Shown one piece after another: positions 4,040 to 17,411 of a DNA stretch of 22,233 nt; position 1 is the first letter of the stretch, and each line of letters opens with the position of its first letter. The position numbers and the translations under genes are program-made. Origin of the DNA: a virus; IMG/VR virus record IMGVR_UViG_3300010367_000095, positions 1 through 22,233 of that record. The stretch is one strand, 5' to 3'. Below the pieces are notes generated by a model. That model was not told the origin of the DNA and searched no databases. It was given only the letters and a program-made list of their open reading frames with translations.

Positions 4040-4059
4040 CCAGAGTTGACTTCGCATCG

Positions 4060-4091
4060 GGGGTGGCCGATTCTTTGGCCACCCCTTTTTT
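4060..4091 (+). terminator. Intrinsic terminator after the fibre gene
   Basis: GGGGTGGCC (4060-4068) pairs perfectly with GGCCACCCC (4077-4085) around an 8-base loop, followed directly by TTTTTT (4086-4091). This is a canonical factor-independent terminator for bacterial RNA polymerase, 20 bases after the fibre gene's stop. It should separate the fibre transcript from the spanin block downstream. Confidence 0.92.
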
Positions 4092-9669: not shown

Positions 9670-9891
9670 ATGACCACCCAACTCCCGAAACCTGACGCCC
9701 GACTTCTGGAAGCAGTAGCGCGACTGCGAAACAGCCCAGACTTCCAGGCGTTTGCGAAACACCAGCAGGCCTTGCTCGACTACACGAAGGATGTGCTGGT
9801 GAACTGTACCCCTGCAGACGTTCCCCGATTTCAAGGCCGGGCCGCGCAACTGCAGGACCTGATCTCCCTTATGACCAAGGACCTCAAATGA
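9670..9891 (+). CDS. Small head-morphogenesis-region protein, 73 aa
   Basis: Starts three bases after the portal stop and overlaps the scaffold gene start (ATGA at 9888), so it is co-translated with both. The 73-residue product is predicted from composition to be mainly helical (EAVARLRNSPDFQAFAKHQQ and onward) with a single cysteine. Small helical proteins between portal and scaffold are common in podoviruses, but no function can be assigned from sequence alone. Confidence 0.7.
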   Translation: MTTQLPKPDARLLEAVARLRNSPDFQAFAKHQQALLDYTKDVLVNCTPADVPRFQGRAAQLQDLISLMTKDLK

Positions 9892-10871
9892 GCATCCCCG
9901 CACGTGTTGCGGCTGAAGCAGCTCAGGCTGACATCCAGCTTGCCGAACTCGCCGCCGCGGCTAACGCCGCCAAGAACCCGCCCGCAGTCGAGACCCCGCC
10001 CGTTGCAGCTGCACCCGCCGCGCCGGCGCCCGCTACGCCGCAGGTGCAGCCGCTGACTGATCCGAGCGACGAGATCCGCCGCTTGGCGCACCAACTGGGT
10101 ACCGTGCAGGGTCGGCTCGAAGCCGCGACGACCCAGAACCAGCAGCTGCTCGGCCGAGTTGAAGAGTTGAGCCGCCAGGCGCCAACGCCGGCCCCAACGC
10201 CGGCTCCCGCGCCCGTCGTGCAGTTGATCACCGACAAGGATCGCGAGGACTATGGCGACGACTTGCTCGGCTTGATCGCGCGCGCGGTGCAGCAGGCGAT
10301 CGGTACGCGCTTCGACGATATCGGCAACCGACTCGCGGGCCTGGAAGGTCGGATCGGCAACACGCAGCAGCAGGTGAAGTCGGTCCAAGAGGTGGCGCAG
10401 CAGTCCGTGGCCGAGAAGTACATCGCCCGGCTGACCGCCGAGGTCCCGGATTGGGAAGTTATCAACGAGGATCCGGACTTTATTGACTGGCTCAATAAAA
10501 AGGATATATTGGCCGGAAAGACGCGTTTTGCAGTGCTGGAAGACGCCCACAACCGGGCCGAAACCGAAACCGTCGTACATATTTTCCGGCTCTACAAGCA
10601 GGAAAAAGGCACTGGCACCCCGGCTCCGACGCCGGCACCGCCCGCGCCCGCACCGGCGAGTCACATCGACCCGAACACGCTGGCTGCCCCTGCGACCACT
10701 CCGCCGACTCCTCCCCCGACCAACCCGCCGGTGGGCCGTATCTGGTCCAAGGACGAGGTGGACAAGCTGTACGAGGACAAGCAGAAGGGTCGGATCACCC
10801 TCACAGACTTCGACAAGCAGGAGAAGGAATACTTCAAAGCGCTTGCCGAGGGCCGTGTGTCCGCCACCTGA
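9888..10871 (+). CDS. Capsid scaffolding protein
   Basis: The 327-residue protein lies between portal and capsid genes, is rich in Ala, Pro, Gln and charged residues, and alternates disordered Pro/Ala linkers (about 30-52, 103-112, 242-285) with helices (61-98, 145-180). The C-terminal 45 residues form a charged helical unit (WSKDEVDKLYEDKQKG, then TLTDFDKQEKEYFKAL), like scaffold C-termini that bind the coat protein. It would direct procapsid assembly and leave before or during packaging. Around 10475-10515 the base composition turns sharply AT-rich, with a rare ATA codon, coinciding with a promoter-like signal. Confidence 0.85.
   Translation: MSIPARVAAEAAQADIQLAELAAAANAAKNPPAVETPPVAAAPAAPAPATPQVQPLTDPSDEIRRLAHQLGTVQGRLEAATTQNQQLLGRVEELSRQAPTPAPTPAPAPVVQLITDKDREDYGDDLLGLIARAVQQAIGTRFDDIGNRLAGLEGRIGNTQQQVKSVQEVAQQSVAEKYIARLTAEVPDWEVINEDPDFIDWLNKKDILAGKTRFAVLEDAHNRAETETVVHIFRLYKQEKGTGTPAPTPAPPAPAPASHIDPNTLAAPATTPPTPPPTNPPVGRIWSKDEVDKLYEDKQKGRITLTDFDKQEKEYFKALAEGRVSAT
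10479..10499 (+). repeat. Perfect 8-bp inverted repeat overlapping the -35 element
   Basis: TTTATTGA (10479-10486) is the exact reverse complement of TCAATAAA (10492-10499), with a 5-base spacer. It lies in coding sequence and covers the -35 hexamer of the promoter-like signal, an operator-like position. There is no T-run after it on the + strand. Confidence 0.6.
10483..10510 (+). promoter_or_regulatory. Sigma70-like promoter inside the scaffold gene
   Basis: TTGACT (10483-10488, five of six to the -35 consensus) and TATATT (10505-10510, five of six to the -10 consensus) are separated by 16 bases. The surrounding gene is GC-rich, and the codons used here (ATA, AAA, AAT, ATT) are unlike the rest. 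Transcription would start near 10517 and reach the capsid gene about 390 bases on. Function is inferred. Confidence 0.55.
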
Positions 10872-10903: not shown

Positions 10904-11830
10904 ATGGCAGTTTTCCCGATTACCCCGGGTCCCACCCCGCCGGCCCACCCGGACTACTCCGGGAAGCTCATTCCGCAGCTGTGGTCGAAGAAGCTCCTGG
11001 AGCGCTTCTACGACGCCACCGTGCTCAACGCGATCTCAAACACCGACTACGAAGGTGAGATCCGTAGCATGGGCGACACCGTGATCGTCAACAAGATCCC
11101 GGACATCACGATCAGCAACTACCGCATGGGCGACAACCTGACGTACGAACGTCCGGTCGCCGATACCGACAGCCTGCTGATCGACCAGGGCAAGTCCTGG
11201 GGCTTCATCATGGACGACGTCGCCGACGCCCAGGCGCTGATCGACATGGTGCCGAAGTGGGCCGAGAACGCGTCCGAGCGCCTGAAGATCGTCGTCGACA
11301 CCGACGTGCTGGCCTACCTGGTCGGCAAGGCCGTCGCGGCCAACCGCGGCGCGACCGCCGGCCGCATCTCGGCGAACATCAACCTCGGTATCGCCGCCAC
11401 CCCGGTGGCGATCACCGCGGTGAACGTGATCGACTACATCGTCGATCTGGGCACCGTGCTGGACGAGGCGAACTGCCCCGAGACCGGCCGCAAACTGGTC
11501 ATCCCGGCCTGGATGGCGGGCATGATCAAGAAGTCCGACCTGCGTGATGCGTCCCTGTCGGGCGATTCGGTCTCGATCGCCCGCAACGGCCGACTAGGCG
11601 TGATCGACCGGTTCGAGCTGTACGTCTCGAACCTGCTGCCCAAGACCGGCGCGAACCACTACGTGTTCGCGATCCACCCGAAGGCGCTGTCGTTCGCGAC
11701 CCAGCTCACCAAGACCGAAAGCCTGCGTGCCGAGTCCACCTTCGGCAACATCATGCGCGGTCTGCTGGTGTACGGCCGCAAGGTGTTCCAGCCGACGCTG
11801 ATGGCCGAAGGCGTGGTCGTCAAGGGCTAA
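10904..11830 (+). CDS. Major capsid protein
   Basis: ATG at 10904 follows GAGG (10891-10894) at nine bases. The 308-residue protein directly follows the scaffold gene and precedes a strong terminator, as expected for the most highly expressed structural gene. It has an N-terminal arm, the segment LIPQLWSKKLLERFYDATVL (25-44) seen near the start of many podovirus coat proteins, central helices (about 100-145) and a C-terminal strand region, consistent with the HK97 coat fold. Its codon choice is strongly biased to C-ending codons compared with neighbours, in keeping with high expression. Confidence 0.9.
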   Translation: MAVFPITPGPTPPAHPDYSGKLIPQLWSKKLLERFYDATVLNAISNTDYEGEIRSMGDTVIVNKIPDITISNYRMGDNLTYERPVADTDSLLIDQGKSWGFIMDDVADAQALIDMVPKWAENASERLKIVVDTDVLAYLVGKAVAANRGATAGRISANINLGIAATPVAITAVNVIDYIVDLGTVLDEANCPETGRKLVIPAWMAGMIKKSDLRDASLSGDSVSIARNGRLGVIDRFELYVSNLLPKTGANHYVFAIHPKALSFATQLTKTESLRAESTFGNIMRGLLVYGRKVFQPTLMAEGVVVKG

Positions 11831-11860
11831 GCCTGAGCAGCCGTGCCGTGGTACGTTAAG

Positions 11861-11890
11861 CCCCGCCAGGACTGTCTGGCGGGGTTTTTT
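11861..11890 (+). terminator. Intrinsic terminator after the capsid gene
   Basis: CCCCGCCAG (11861-11869) pairs perfectly with CTGGCGGGG (11876-11884) around a 6-base loop, followed by TTTTTT (11885-11890). It lies 30 bases after the capsid stop and directly before the AGGAG of the next gene. Its location matches that of the T7 late terminator downstream of the capsid gene. Confidence 0.93.
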
Positions 11891-13267: not shown

Positions 13268-14497
13268 ATGACGATCTTCGTCAACAACGCTGCCGGGACG
13301 CTCGCGGCGAACATCGGCCCGTCCGACGCTGCGATTCTGCTTGGCGCAGGCCAGGGCGCAGCATTCCCTTCGCCGACGGGCGGCAACTATTTCTATGCGA
13401 CCTTGCAGCATTTCGCGACCGGTGTGATCGAGATCGTGAAATGCACAGGGCGTTCGGTTGACACGCTTACGGTTGAGCGTGGTCGCGATAGCACTTCCGC
13501 GACCTCGTTCATTACGGGCAGCGTGCTTGAGTGCCGCCTGGTCGCAGTCATGCTGGTTGAGATCGATTACCGTTTGGTTGCTGGTCAGGCGAATGGGCTG
13601 GCTACGTTGGACGGAGCGGTCAAGCTGCCGGTTGCGCAGTTGCCGACGACAGTGCCGCTACTGACGGGCGGCAAGCTCGACCTGGCGGTGATCCCCACCG
13701 CTGTTCCGACGGCGGCTCAGGTTGACCTCAAGGCGCCGAAAGCGGATCCGACCTTTACCGGTACGGTGACGGCGTCGAAGCTGGTGATGTCCGGAACCGG
13801 GCGTCTGATCGATGTGGGTGACGATGCGGCTTTGTACGACATCAACACGGCAGGCCATATCGGTATAAAGGGTCAAGTCGACCCCAACATTGGTTACATC
13901 CAATTCGGCAACGCGCCTGGGTTTGGCTGGAACGGCAGCGCGCTGGTGTTTAACGGCGGCGCTGTGTACCACGCGGGCAATTTCAACCCTGCCGCTGCCG
14001 TACAGAAGTCTGGCGACCACATGTCGGGGGACTTGTACCTCGATAGCGGCGTGCTGCGGCTGAACTCGGCTGGCAATCGGTACCTGTACAACAACGGCTC
14101 TGTTTACGAGTTGGCTGGGCAGGGGTTGTCAGTGGGTGGTGTGTTGTACTGCACTGACATGACCATCACGGTGTCCGACCGCCGCGCGAAGAAAAACGTT
14201 GCGCGGGTGCAGCCTTCGCTTGACCTTTCGCGCAAGTTGAAGCTGTACGAGTGGAACTTGAAAGAAAGCGGAGAGTACGGCCGAGGCCCGATGGCGCAAG
14301 ATCTCAAGCGCCTTGCTCCCGGTACCGTGCGTAAGAACGGTAAGGTGCTGGGCATCGACAAGGCCGGCGCCGCGCTCGAATACGCGATGAGCTTGGAGCT
14401 GCGAGTGCGCGAGCTGGAGAAGCAACTCGTTGCGCTACAAAAGCAAATGACCCGGGCTTTGGCGCCCAAGGCGCGGAAGCGCACGAAGTCGGAGTAA
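13268..14497 (+). CDS. Tail fibre with C-terminal S74-type self-cleaving chaperone
   Basis: The 409-residue protein has an N-terminal virion-attachment type region (about 1-115), a linker with an LDGAVKLPVAQLP motif typical of fibre proteins, a fibre shaft with YHAGNFNP and SGDHMSGDLYLDSG repeats (about 237-266), and a C-terminal domain (303-409) starting SDRRAKKNV and ending in a coiled coil. That domain is the intramolecular chaperone of endosialidase (peptidase S74) type, which drives trimer folding and is cut between Ser and Asp (here S303/D304). GGAG (13256-13259) precedes the ATG. Receptor specificity cannot be read from sequence. It lies between the connector and nozzle genes. Confidence 0.88.
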   Translation: MTIFVNNAAGTLAANIGPSDAAILLGAGQGAAFPSPTGGNYFYATLQHFATGVIEIVKCTGRSVDTLTVERGRDSTSATSFITGSVLECRLVAVMLVEIDYRLVAGQANGLATLDGAVKLPVAQLPTTVPLLTGGKLDLAVIPTAVPTAAQVDLKAPKADPTFTGTVTASKLVMSGTGRLIDVGDDAALYDINTAGHIGIKGQVDPNIGYIQFGNAPGFGWNGSALVFNGGAVYHAGNFNPAAAVQKSGDHMSGDLYLDSGVLRLNSAGNRYLYNNGSVYELAGQGLSVGGVLYCTDMTITVSDRRAKKNVARVQPSLDLSRKLKLYEWNLKESGEYGRGPMAQDLKRLAPGTVRKNGKVLGIDKAGAALEYAMSLELRVRELEKQLVALQKQMTRALAPKARKRTKSE

Positions 14498-14502
14498 GCG
14501 AC

Positions 14503-16317
14503 ATGGCTGGCTTCCGCGTAACTCTGTTCGGCGGCATTATCCCCCGGCTGGCTGATCGCGGCTTGCCGGATAACGCTGCGCAGTTCGCGATGAATGCGAA
14601 ACTGTTCTCGGGGGAGCTGCGTGCATGGAACCGACTGCGCGAGCTTGCGACACTCAGCATCAGCAACGCCAAAACGGTTTTTCACTACTTGCATAGTGGT
14701 GCTGACCGTTATCTCGCGTTTCCTACGTATACCAACGTGGTGAAGGCGCCGCTGATCAACGAGCAGTTGGGGCGGCTGTACTGGACCCCCGAAGCCGGCG
14801 GCGCGATGGTGAACACCACTGCGCGTATCGAGGCGTCGCAACCTGCGTTCAAGCTCGGCGTGCCACGGCCGACTGGCACCTTTACCGTGGTGCCGGCTGG
14901 CGGCACGATTGCCACGGCTGAAACTCGCGTCTATGCCGCGACAGTGGTCACCACGTTCGGTGAGGAAAGCGCCCCGAGCGACACCGTGTCGGTGAGTGGC
15001 AACGCCGACGGTACGTGGACGGTGAACGGTCTGAACGCTCTCGTGGTCGACACGGCGGGGTATCCGAACATTTCGAAGCTGCGCCTGTACCGGACGCTGT
15101 CGTCGAGCACCGGCGTGGATTACCGCATGGTGTTTGAGTGGCCCATCGGTACGCAGCCAGCTGTCTACAACGACACGATGACGAACACCGCGCTGGCATC
15201 GCAACCGGTGCTGCAGTCGTTGGGCTGGGATCTGCCGCCGGATGGCTTGCGCGGGTTGATCGCGGTCGCTGGCGGTTTCCTCGCCGGCTTTACTGCCCGC
15301 ACCGTCCGGCTGTCGGTACCTTACCAACCGCAGGCGTGGCCCGTTGACTTTCAGTTCGCGGTCGAGGACGACATTGTCGGTTTGGGGACGTTCGGCAATA
15401 CGGTCGTGGTGTGTACCAACGGACGCACCTACTTGTTGATCGGTCCGTCTCCCGACGCGATGTCGTTGGTCAAGATGGAAGGCGTGCAGTCTTGCCTGTC
15501 GGCGCGCAGCATTGTGTCGACTAGCGGCGGCGTCATGTACGCATCGACTGACGGCCTGGTGATTATCGACGGGTCGACGAACCGCGGTGCGATTATCTCG
15601 CGGCAGTGGGTGACCAAAGACGAATGGATGGCGCGATTCGCTCCGCGCCTGCAGATGGCGTCGATCTACCAGGACCGGTATCTGGCCTTTTACAGCAGTC
15701 AGCTGGGCCTTACGATTGGGTTCGACGACTCGCTCACCGGCTTCACTGAGTTGCAGCAGGAAGGCGTGCAATCCGTCGACTTGGACGTGCTCAGTGGCCA
15801 GACGCTTATCACCATCGGCAACAAGGTTTACGAGTGGGACGGCGACCCGACCGCGTCGTTGTCTTACACGTGGCAGTCGAAGCCGTTTTTGGTCCCGAAG
15901 CCGCTCAACTTCGGCGCGCTGCAGCTGCGCGCTGACTTCGCTGGCAACAGCTCGACGATCCCAGTGCCGCCGGCACAGGGCATTGGCGGGTTCGCCATGA
16001 ACGCGCGCGGGCCGATCAACGGGTTCGCCGGTTTGGCCAAGCCGCCAGCTGAGCGCTATGGCTACGCGCTCAACGGGCCGCCCGCATGGATGGCGATGGG
16101 TGTTGCGCCGGCGCCGCCCGCGGCCGGGCCTGAGATCGCGGTGAAGGTCTATGCAGATGGCGTCCTGCGCTGGTTTGGCTCGATCAACAGCGAGAAGGCG
16201 CAGCGCCTGCCGAGCGGGTTCAAAGCAGTGAAGTGGGAAGTCGAGCTGCAGGGAGCGTCTGCGCTGTATTCGTTCGCGCTCTCCGAGACGGCGAAAGGCC
16301 TGGAGCAGATTCAGTGA
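14503..16317 (+). CDS. Tail nozzle / tail tube B-like beta-propeller protein
   Basis: The 604-residue protein lies where T7 encodes its nozzle protein. The N-terminus (GFRVTLFGGIIPRLADRGLP) matches the start pattern of podovirus tail hub proteins, followed by a fibronectin-like insertion (about 120-215) and a series of blade-like repeats (GGFLAGFTARTVRLSVPYQP, GTFGNTVVVCTNGRTYLLIG, SGGVMYASTDGLVIIDG), each of strand-turn-strand form, suggesting a beta-propeller. It would form the tail tip through which DNA leaves. GGAG (14491-14494) precedes ATG 14503 at eight bases. The stop overlaps the next GTG. Confidence 0.75.
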   Translation: MAGFRVTLFGGIIPRLADRGLPDNAAQFAMNAKLFSGELRAWNRLRELATLSISNAKTVFHYLHSGADRYLAFPTYTNVVKAPLINEQLGRLYWTPEAGGAMVNTTARIEASQPAFKLGVPRPTGTFTVVPAGGTIATAETRVYAATVVTTFGEESAPSDTVSVSGNADGTWTVNGLNALVVDTAGYPNISKLRLYRTLSSSTGVDYRMVFEWPIGTQPAVYNDTMTNTALASQPVLQSLGWDLPPDGLRGLIAVAGGFLAGFTARTVRLSVPYQPQAWPVDFQFAVEDDIVGLGTFGNTVVVCTNGRTYLLIGPSPDAMSLVKMEGVQSCLSARSIVSTSGGVMYASTDGLVIIDGSTNRGAIISRQWVTKDEWMARFAPRLQMASIYQDRYLAFYSSQLGLTIGFDDSLTGFTELQQEGVQSVDLDVLSGQTLITIGNKVYEWDGDPTASLSYTWQSKPFLVPKPLNFGALQLRADFAGNSSTIPVPPAQGIGGFAMNARGPINGFAGLAKPPAERYGYALNGPPAWMAMGVAPAPPAAGPEIAVKVYADGVLRWFGSINSEKAQRLPSGFKAVKWEVELQGASALYSFALSETAKGLEQIQ

Positions 16318-17411
16318 CCACGAAGATCAATAAGCGATCGATCGCGCCGCCGACCAACCCCGCTAACCAGAAATCGGTGGCGGATTTGAAAACTGCGGTC
16401 GACGAGCTGAGTGGTTCCGTCGGGCAGAACGCACAGCGCGCGGTGCGGCTGTGCGAGTTGATCGACGCCGGCATTTTGAAGCTAACCCCTGAAGGCTTGG
16501 TTGAGATCGGCGCCAACGCTGCGACCAACACGTTCAATTCCGTGCTGACCGTGCGGCCTCAAGGCGGCCCGTCGGAAGGTGGTGAGATCTCGTTGCTTGG
16601 AGCACCCGGGTATACGACTGCGCGCATCGACAGCTACCAGTCGACGACGCGCCTGTTTGGTGGCGCTTCGAATCCGCTGACCTGGAACCGCCAGGATGGT
16701 GAGCTGAACAACCCGGGGATTATCCGGGCAACTGGCTCCGGCGCGGCGTTGTTTACGCACGACCGAACGAGCGCTCGTACGTGGGCGTTGTACGGAACTA
16801 GCGACACGTTTTATCTGTTCAACGGAACCAACAACATCCTGGTTTCCGATAACGTCGGTAACTTCTACTCTGGGTTCGACAATGCGCGCAGCTGCGGCGC
16901 AGCCGGCAATCGGTGGTCAGTGGTCTACGCCGGCACCGGTACGATCAGCACGTCGGATGCGCGAGACAAGACTCCTGTTCGGACGCTCGAGCAGGCTGAG
17001 CTGCAGGCGGCGGTGGCGCTCGCCCGCGAGATCGGCGTGTACCAGTGGCTCGCCATGGTGGCATCGAAAGGCGCTGAGCATGCCCGGCTGCACTGCGGCA
17101 TGACGGTGCAGCGTGCGATCGAGGTTATGCAGTCGTTCGGCCTGGATCCGATGCGCTACGGGTTCATCTGCTATGACTCCTGGCCAGAGGTTGAAGAGCT
17201 GGTCGAGGAACACCCTGCGATACCGGCGACTTACAGCGAAACGGGCGTCATGCTGTCTCCTGAAGTGCCTGCGCGGCGCGAAGTGGTGCGGTTTGCGCGG
17301 GCAGCGGGTGAGAGCTTTAGCTTTCGCATGGAACAGCTGCTACTGTTCCTCGCAGCAGGGTTTGAAGCCCGCCTCACGGCTTTGGAGAATCCCGATGGCC
17401 CTTCCAGTTAG
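16314..17411 (+). CDS. Second tail fibre with C-terminal S74-type chaperone
   Basis: GTG at 16314 overlaps the nozzle gene stop (GTGA), favoured over a longer frame opening at 16233 inside that gene. The 365-residue protein has a polar N-terminus with a helical segment (about 18-50), a beta-rich shaft (about 60-205) and a C-terminal domain from 214 (SDARDKTPVR) to the end, containing LAREIGVYQWL and GMTVQRAIEVMQSFGLDP. The SD-x-R-x-K motif marks an S74-type chaperone with predicted cleavage at S214/D215. Its sequence differs widely from the first fibre's chaperone, so this is not a recent duplicate. The C-terminal part ends in a coiled coil (MEQLLLFLAAGFEARLTALE). Confidence 0.83.
   Translation: MTTKINKRSIAPPTNPANQKSVADLKTAVDELSGSVGQNAQRAVRLCELIDAGILKLTPEGLVEIGANAATNTFNSVLTVRPQGGPSEGGEISLLGAPGYTTARIDSYQSTTRLFGGASNPLTWNRQDGELNNPGIIRATGSGAALFTHDRTSARTWALYGTSDTFYLFNGTNNILVSDNVGNFYSGFDNARSCGAAGNRWSVVYAGTGTISTSDARDKTPVRTLEQAELQAAVALAREIGVYQWLAMVASKGAEHARLHCGMTVQRAIEVMQSFGLDPMRYGFICYDSWPEVEELVEEHPAIPATYSETGVMLSPEVPARREVVRFARAAGESFSFRMEQLLLFLAAGFEARLTALENPDGPSS

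Follow-up and report, generated by a model that had tools for sequence, protein, structure and literature searches.

The gene in the scaffold position of this phage contains, within its coding sequence, letters that resemble a sigma70-type promoter, which raises the question of whether they constitute a transcription signal for the downstream major capsid protein (MCP) gene or a by-product of protein sequence and codon usage. The window, i.e., the whole stretch of DNA that was analysed, comprises 22,233 nucleotides (IMG/VR record IMGVR_UViG_3300010367_000095). The scaffold-position ORF encodes a protein that matches phrog_13678 (E 1.5e-32), a family of unknown function. Within it, the hexamers TTGACT (5/6 matches to TTGACA) and TATATT (5/6 to TATAAT), separated by a 16-nt spacer, agree with the sigma70 consensus at 10 of 12 positions (Table 1). 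The initial annotation had reported these hexamers together with a perfect 8-bp inverted repeat and a rare ATA codon, at about 390 bases from the capsid gene. The letters were found exactly as described, ATA accounted for 7 of the 5347 codons counted, and the distance to the MCP ATG is 421 nt counted from the initial T of TTGAC and 393 nt counted from the last base of TATATT. The window holds one sigma70-like site with at least 10 of 12 matches, for a chance expectation of 0.42 sites per window (P of at least one site, 0.35); hence, the promoter match is non-significant on the window alone.

Table 1. Coordinates of the features at the scaffold–capsid locus (positions in the window).
Feature	Position	Strand	Basis
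Scaffold-position ORF, 327 aa, between portal and capsid genes	9888..10871	+	phrog_13678 match, synteny
8-bp dyad over the -35, TTTATTGA-CTGGC-TCAATAAA	10479..10499	.	perfect arms, 5-nt spacer
TTTA just 5' of the -35; wobble T of TTT enriched clade-wide	10479..10482	+	p 7e-7
-35 element TTGACT (TTGACA in L091/L092)	10483..10488	+	17/17 lineages; wobble p 6e-15
16-nt spacer, A/T content above codon-usage prediction	10489..10504	+	A/T excess analysis
-10 element TATATT	10505..10510	+	GAT wobble at 10503-10505, p 7e-6
Predicted transcription start, 6-8 nt past the -10	10516..10518	+	sigma70 geometry
MCP gene (phrog_267 major head protein), first complete gene 3' of the putative promoter	10904..11830	+	E 1.1e-54
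Intrinsic-terminator-like hairpin and T run directly after the capsid gene	11858..11887	+	13 pairs, 8 GC

Conservation of the -35 site among relatives

Relatives were collected by querying IMG/VR contigs with the MCP and portal proteins for loci with the same gene order, and the removal of near-copies left 17 in-group lineages, which a fully supported branch of the capsid tree separates from the other phages. The scaffold protein as a query of viral contigs retrieved no relatives, and a scan of genome contigs yielded just two distant loci. The clade includes no named phage, and no cultured in-group phage was present in the phage collection searched; the nearest named phages, e.g., RHph_TM3_14A, infect Rhizobium. 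Syntenic scaffold homologues precede the MCP in all in-group loci. The scaffold proteins are highly diverged across the clade, and the promoter island falls in their most conserved motif, W..xN...F[IVL]DWL. The median identity at 4-fold sites between lineages was 0.495 as against 0.37 expected, i.e., near synonymous saturation, and shared ancestry therefore explains little of the -35 conservation; the lineage counts given here assume near-independence, and full independence is not claimed.

TTGAC was present at the same scaffold site in all 17 lineages, 400-447 nt 5' of the MCP start. In 15 of them, where the protein motif is F/L-[I,V,L]-D-W-[L,V], the DNA sequence is TTGACTGG; GAC is preceded throughout by ATT, CTT, or GTT, such that Ile, Leu, and Val vary with the terminal T constant. 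The remaining two, L091 and L092, encode W-L-T-W-L rather than F[ILV]DWL from the DNA TTGACATGG, with residues and register altered and TTGACA retained. The wobble T before GAC, a base found at just 6-17% of wobble positions in these phages, was conserved with p 5.9e-15 against each lineage's own codon usage and ranked first among the 1237 codon columns of portal, scaffold, and capsid. Among the next-best columns were those of the capsid start region and, with p 6e-11, the Shine-Dalgarno region of the scaffold gene; as these are known kinds of nucleotide constraint, they serve as positive controls. At -450..-400 from the MCP, 17 in-group occurrences of TTGAC were observed vs. 1.5 expected, the corresponding values being 6 vs. 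6.9 in the rest of the scaffold gene and 6 vs. 12.4 in the MCP gene. Out-group scaffolds with the [ILV]DW motif use ATC, CTA, CTC, and TTG-GAT as well as ATT. The test proposed by the initial annotation, namely that relatives might keep the protein and lose the hexamers, was run, and TTGAC was kept throughout while the surrounding protein varied. The -35 is under DNA-level selection in the scaffold gene across the clade.

It is exceedingly improbable that a conserved protein motif and codon bias yielded these letters by chance. DWL is indeed conserved in the protein, GAC and TGG are forced or preferred, and the window considered singly gives a non-significant match, but the varying bases are synonymous and rare, their column is the best of all those compared, L091/L092 retain TTGACA with different amino acids, and the synonymous recoding null (below) is exceeded. 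The promoter match is highly significant because it is conserved across lineages. Since synonymous constraint alone cannot tell DNA from RNA, an RNA-level element in the scaffold mRNA, either a structure or an overlapping reading frame, was also considered; it is rendered highly unlikely by RNAalifold, which returned no shared RNA structure at the site (0 pairs), and by the stops that close the +1 and +2 frames in most lineages and the -0 frame in 6/17. No conserved overlapping frame was found on the plus strand, and a candidate frame starting at TTG 10483 was rejected, being closed by stops in most relatives.

The initial annotation had further proposed that a protein binding the dyad over the -35 could block the promoter. 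In the window, the dyad is perfect over 8 bp and overlies the -35; however, its arms pair at 8/8 positions in the window only; in the remaining 16 lineages, just 1-6 of 8 positions pair. The window contains nine perfect 8-bp dyads with loops of 3-8 nt vs. 4.8 +/- 2.7 in Markov controls, i.e., near the chance number, and half of the dyad arm is already fixed by TTGA and the protein motif. The left half of the dyad is set by promoter and protein, and the right half is free and variable. An operator at this position is thus very improbable and was rejected as a conserved feature; the dyad is probably a chance by-product with no conserved role. Of the promoter-with-operator proposal, the promoter part is supported, with TTGAC in all lineages, and the operator part is not.

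The -10 element and the A/T footprint

Synonymous recoding, with amino acids and codon usage held, was used as the null for the whole element. The promoter score summed over lineages was 175 vs. 53 +/- 9 after recoding, and with TTGACT held, the -10 half alone scored 53.6 vs. -0.4 +/- 8.1. The A/T excess over codon usage peaked at -15..+29 around TTGAC (z 5.0, 7.8, and 9.9; ∼45 nt), the -15..-1 segment itself giving z 5.0. It was near zero upstream of -15, small just downstream of +29, and moderate again in the 3' part of the scaffold gene. The wobble, recoding, and A/T excess results all indicate DNA-level selection of the kind expected for a sigma70-type promoter, and the earlier suggestion that codon choice is bent by a DNA signal is borne out by the first-ranked wobble column and the exceeded recoding null.

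Two further observations concern the 3' part of the scaffold gene. A moderate clade-wide A/T excess over codon usage was seen at +120..+134 and +150..+224 from TTGAC (about 10603-10707). The wobble A of aligned GGA codons at 10608 is a second constrained wobble site in the scaffold gene (p 2e-8), ∼125 nt 3' of the -35, where the alignment lies in a low-complexity linker.

The -10 excess was high at spacers of 6 to 21 and not confined to 16-18, because the spacer itself is A/T-rich; the absolute score peaked at 16-17. A -10 near TATAAT at spacer 16-18 was good in about half of the lineages and, taken jointly, above the recoding null. The window, L002, L003, and L111 have a good -10; that of L004, L089, and L090 is moderate, and L091/L092 and the L093-L107 branch have a poor one. 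In the branch of the window, the -10 takes the degenerate form TAnnnT. L093, L095-L097, L099, L100, and L107 show nAnGAT at spacer 17 (individual p 0.07-0.67). The poor -10 in one branch and in L091/L092 is the main weakness of the promoter reading.

This pattern, in which TTGAC is much better conserved than the -10 and the latter is poor in one branch, would also fit a recognition site for a non-polymerase factor, such as a phage regulator, the packaging machinery, or a nucleoid protein, for which TTGACTGG would be the site and the -10 likeness secondary. Such a factor is quite unlikely, as the footprint spans both the -35 and the -10 before declining, the -10 half beats synonymous recoding, TTGAC is a known sigma70 -35, and the same lineages all carry a terminator after the MCP (below). 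Also unlikely, though slightly less so, is a strict -35-only promoter class, in which, for the branch with the decayed -10, a phage-coded factor would recruit the host polymerase late and capsid dosage would be timed separately from the head operon.

A putative capsid transcription unit

A terminator-like hairpin with a T-rich tail was found after the MCP gene in 17/17 in-group lineages, compared with 0-2 of 17 in shuffles and 22/80 in the out-group. In L092, the automatic match was poor, and CCCCCG...CGGGGG-TTTCTTC was recognized by eye at the homologous place. Another strong terminator-like hairpin, with a T run on the left arm, lies at 4059-4086 of the window. By its sequence, the locus has the layout of a dedicated capsid unit, with the putative promoter 5' and the terminator directly 3' of the MCP gene; promoter and hairpin would bracket the capsid gene to give a ∼1.37-kb capsid-only mRNA.

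The comparison shows that selection acts at the DNA level on the -35, that the A/T footprint is concentrated around the element, and that the terminator-like hairpin is conserved; the likely explanation is a sigma70-like promoter for the capsid gene that is embedded in the scaffold coding sequence and conserved across the clade. The claim that a promoter written by codon choice is placed for extra capsid transcription is, accordingly, supported by conservation, as a putative promoter. The host RNA polymerase would recognize TTGACT-N16-TATATT and start near 10517, and the transcript would span the final third of the scaffold gene plus the whole capsid gene and end at the hairpin. This capsid-only mRNA may supplement a polycistronic head-operon transcript, the capsid protein being required in much higher copy number than portal or scaffold, and scaffold codon choice would be bent to preserve the promoter. 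From the above we infer the use of sigma70, the start site, the timing, and the dosage purpose.

In phage T4, the late promoters of gene 23 lie at or in gene 22. The open-access literature yielded no direct precedent for a scaffold gene with an internal promoter. In phage T7, gene 10A is preceded by phi10 and directly followed by Tphi, and upstream transcripts also cover the gene (PMC6068830). The likeness consists in a promoter of its own for the major capsid gene and a terminator right after that gene. However, T7 promoters serve the phage's own RNA polymerase and sit immediately upstream of the gene, whereas the site in this clade is sigma70-like and lies inside the scaffold gene ∼420 nt upstream of the MCP. 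A T7-type polymerase (PF00940) was detected in none of 7 relative records, in a search in which control genomes were equally silent.

The sigma70 consensus of S. meliloti is CTTGAC-N17-CTATAT (PMC2873474), and the clade site resembles alphaproteobacterial sigma70 promoters in its TTGAC -35 and an A/T-rich -10 ∼17 nt on. It differs in that the spacer in the window is 16 nt, the -10 is weak in one branch, and the site is located inside an ORF. Further clear sigma70-like sites occur in the clade records, e.g., CTTGACA-N18-TATACT; they are mostly CTTGACA and resemble the S. meliloti consensus. The Rhizobium phages RHph_TM3_14A, TM27A, and TM29 share the gene order (divergent terminase, portal, scaffold position, MCP), with MCPs about 50% identical, and RHph_TM3_14A has a hairpin after the MCP as in the clade. 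They fall outside the clade, and the corresponding site is CTTGCTTGG, without TTGAC.

The locus illustrates how a putative transcription signal can reside in the synonymous sites of a phage structural gene and be conserved despite highly diverged scaffold proteins, in a clade without a cultured member. It predicts a start near 10517 and a capsid mRNA of ∼1.37 kb. It also suggests that hidden promoters can be lost when phage head genes are recoded or their codon usage is altered, and that phages dependent on the host polymerase could raise capsid dosage in this way, as T7 does via its own polymerase.

Other observations on the clade and its neighbors

In out-group loci, TTGAC occurred 22 times vs. 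11 expected at 300-450 nt 5' of the MCP, at shifted positions, e.g., as CTTGACA in L193 and L116. Promoter turnover is a possible reason for this excess; the counts are suggestive and too weak to claim an out-group promoter at shifted positions. Strong CTTGACA-type sites followed by a stable hairpin at about the expected start were observed in L251 (around 695-794), L252, L253, and L256, which are the records of L096, L097, L100, and L092, respectively. The hairpins of L252 and L253 have a common loop, ACGTGCGGT, on different stems, and that of L251 is slightly different. No trustworthy Rfam match was obtained for the four hairpins, which are possibly a 5'-UTR or antitermination-like RNA element. 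Further along the window, 13268-14497 and 16233-17411 encode two proteins that resemble tail fibres, and both carry a Peptidase_S74 chaperone domain.
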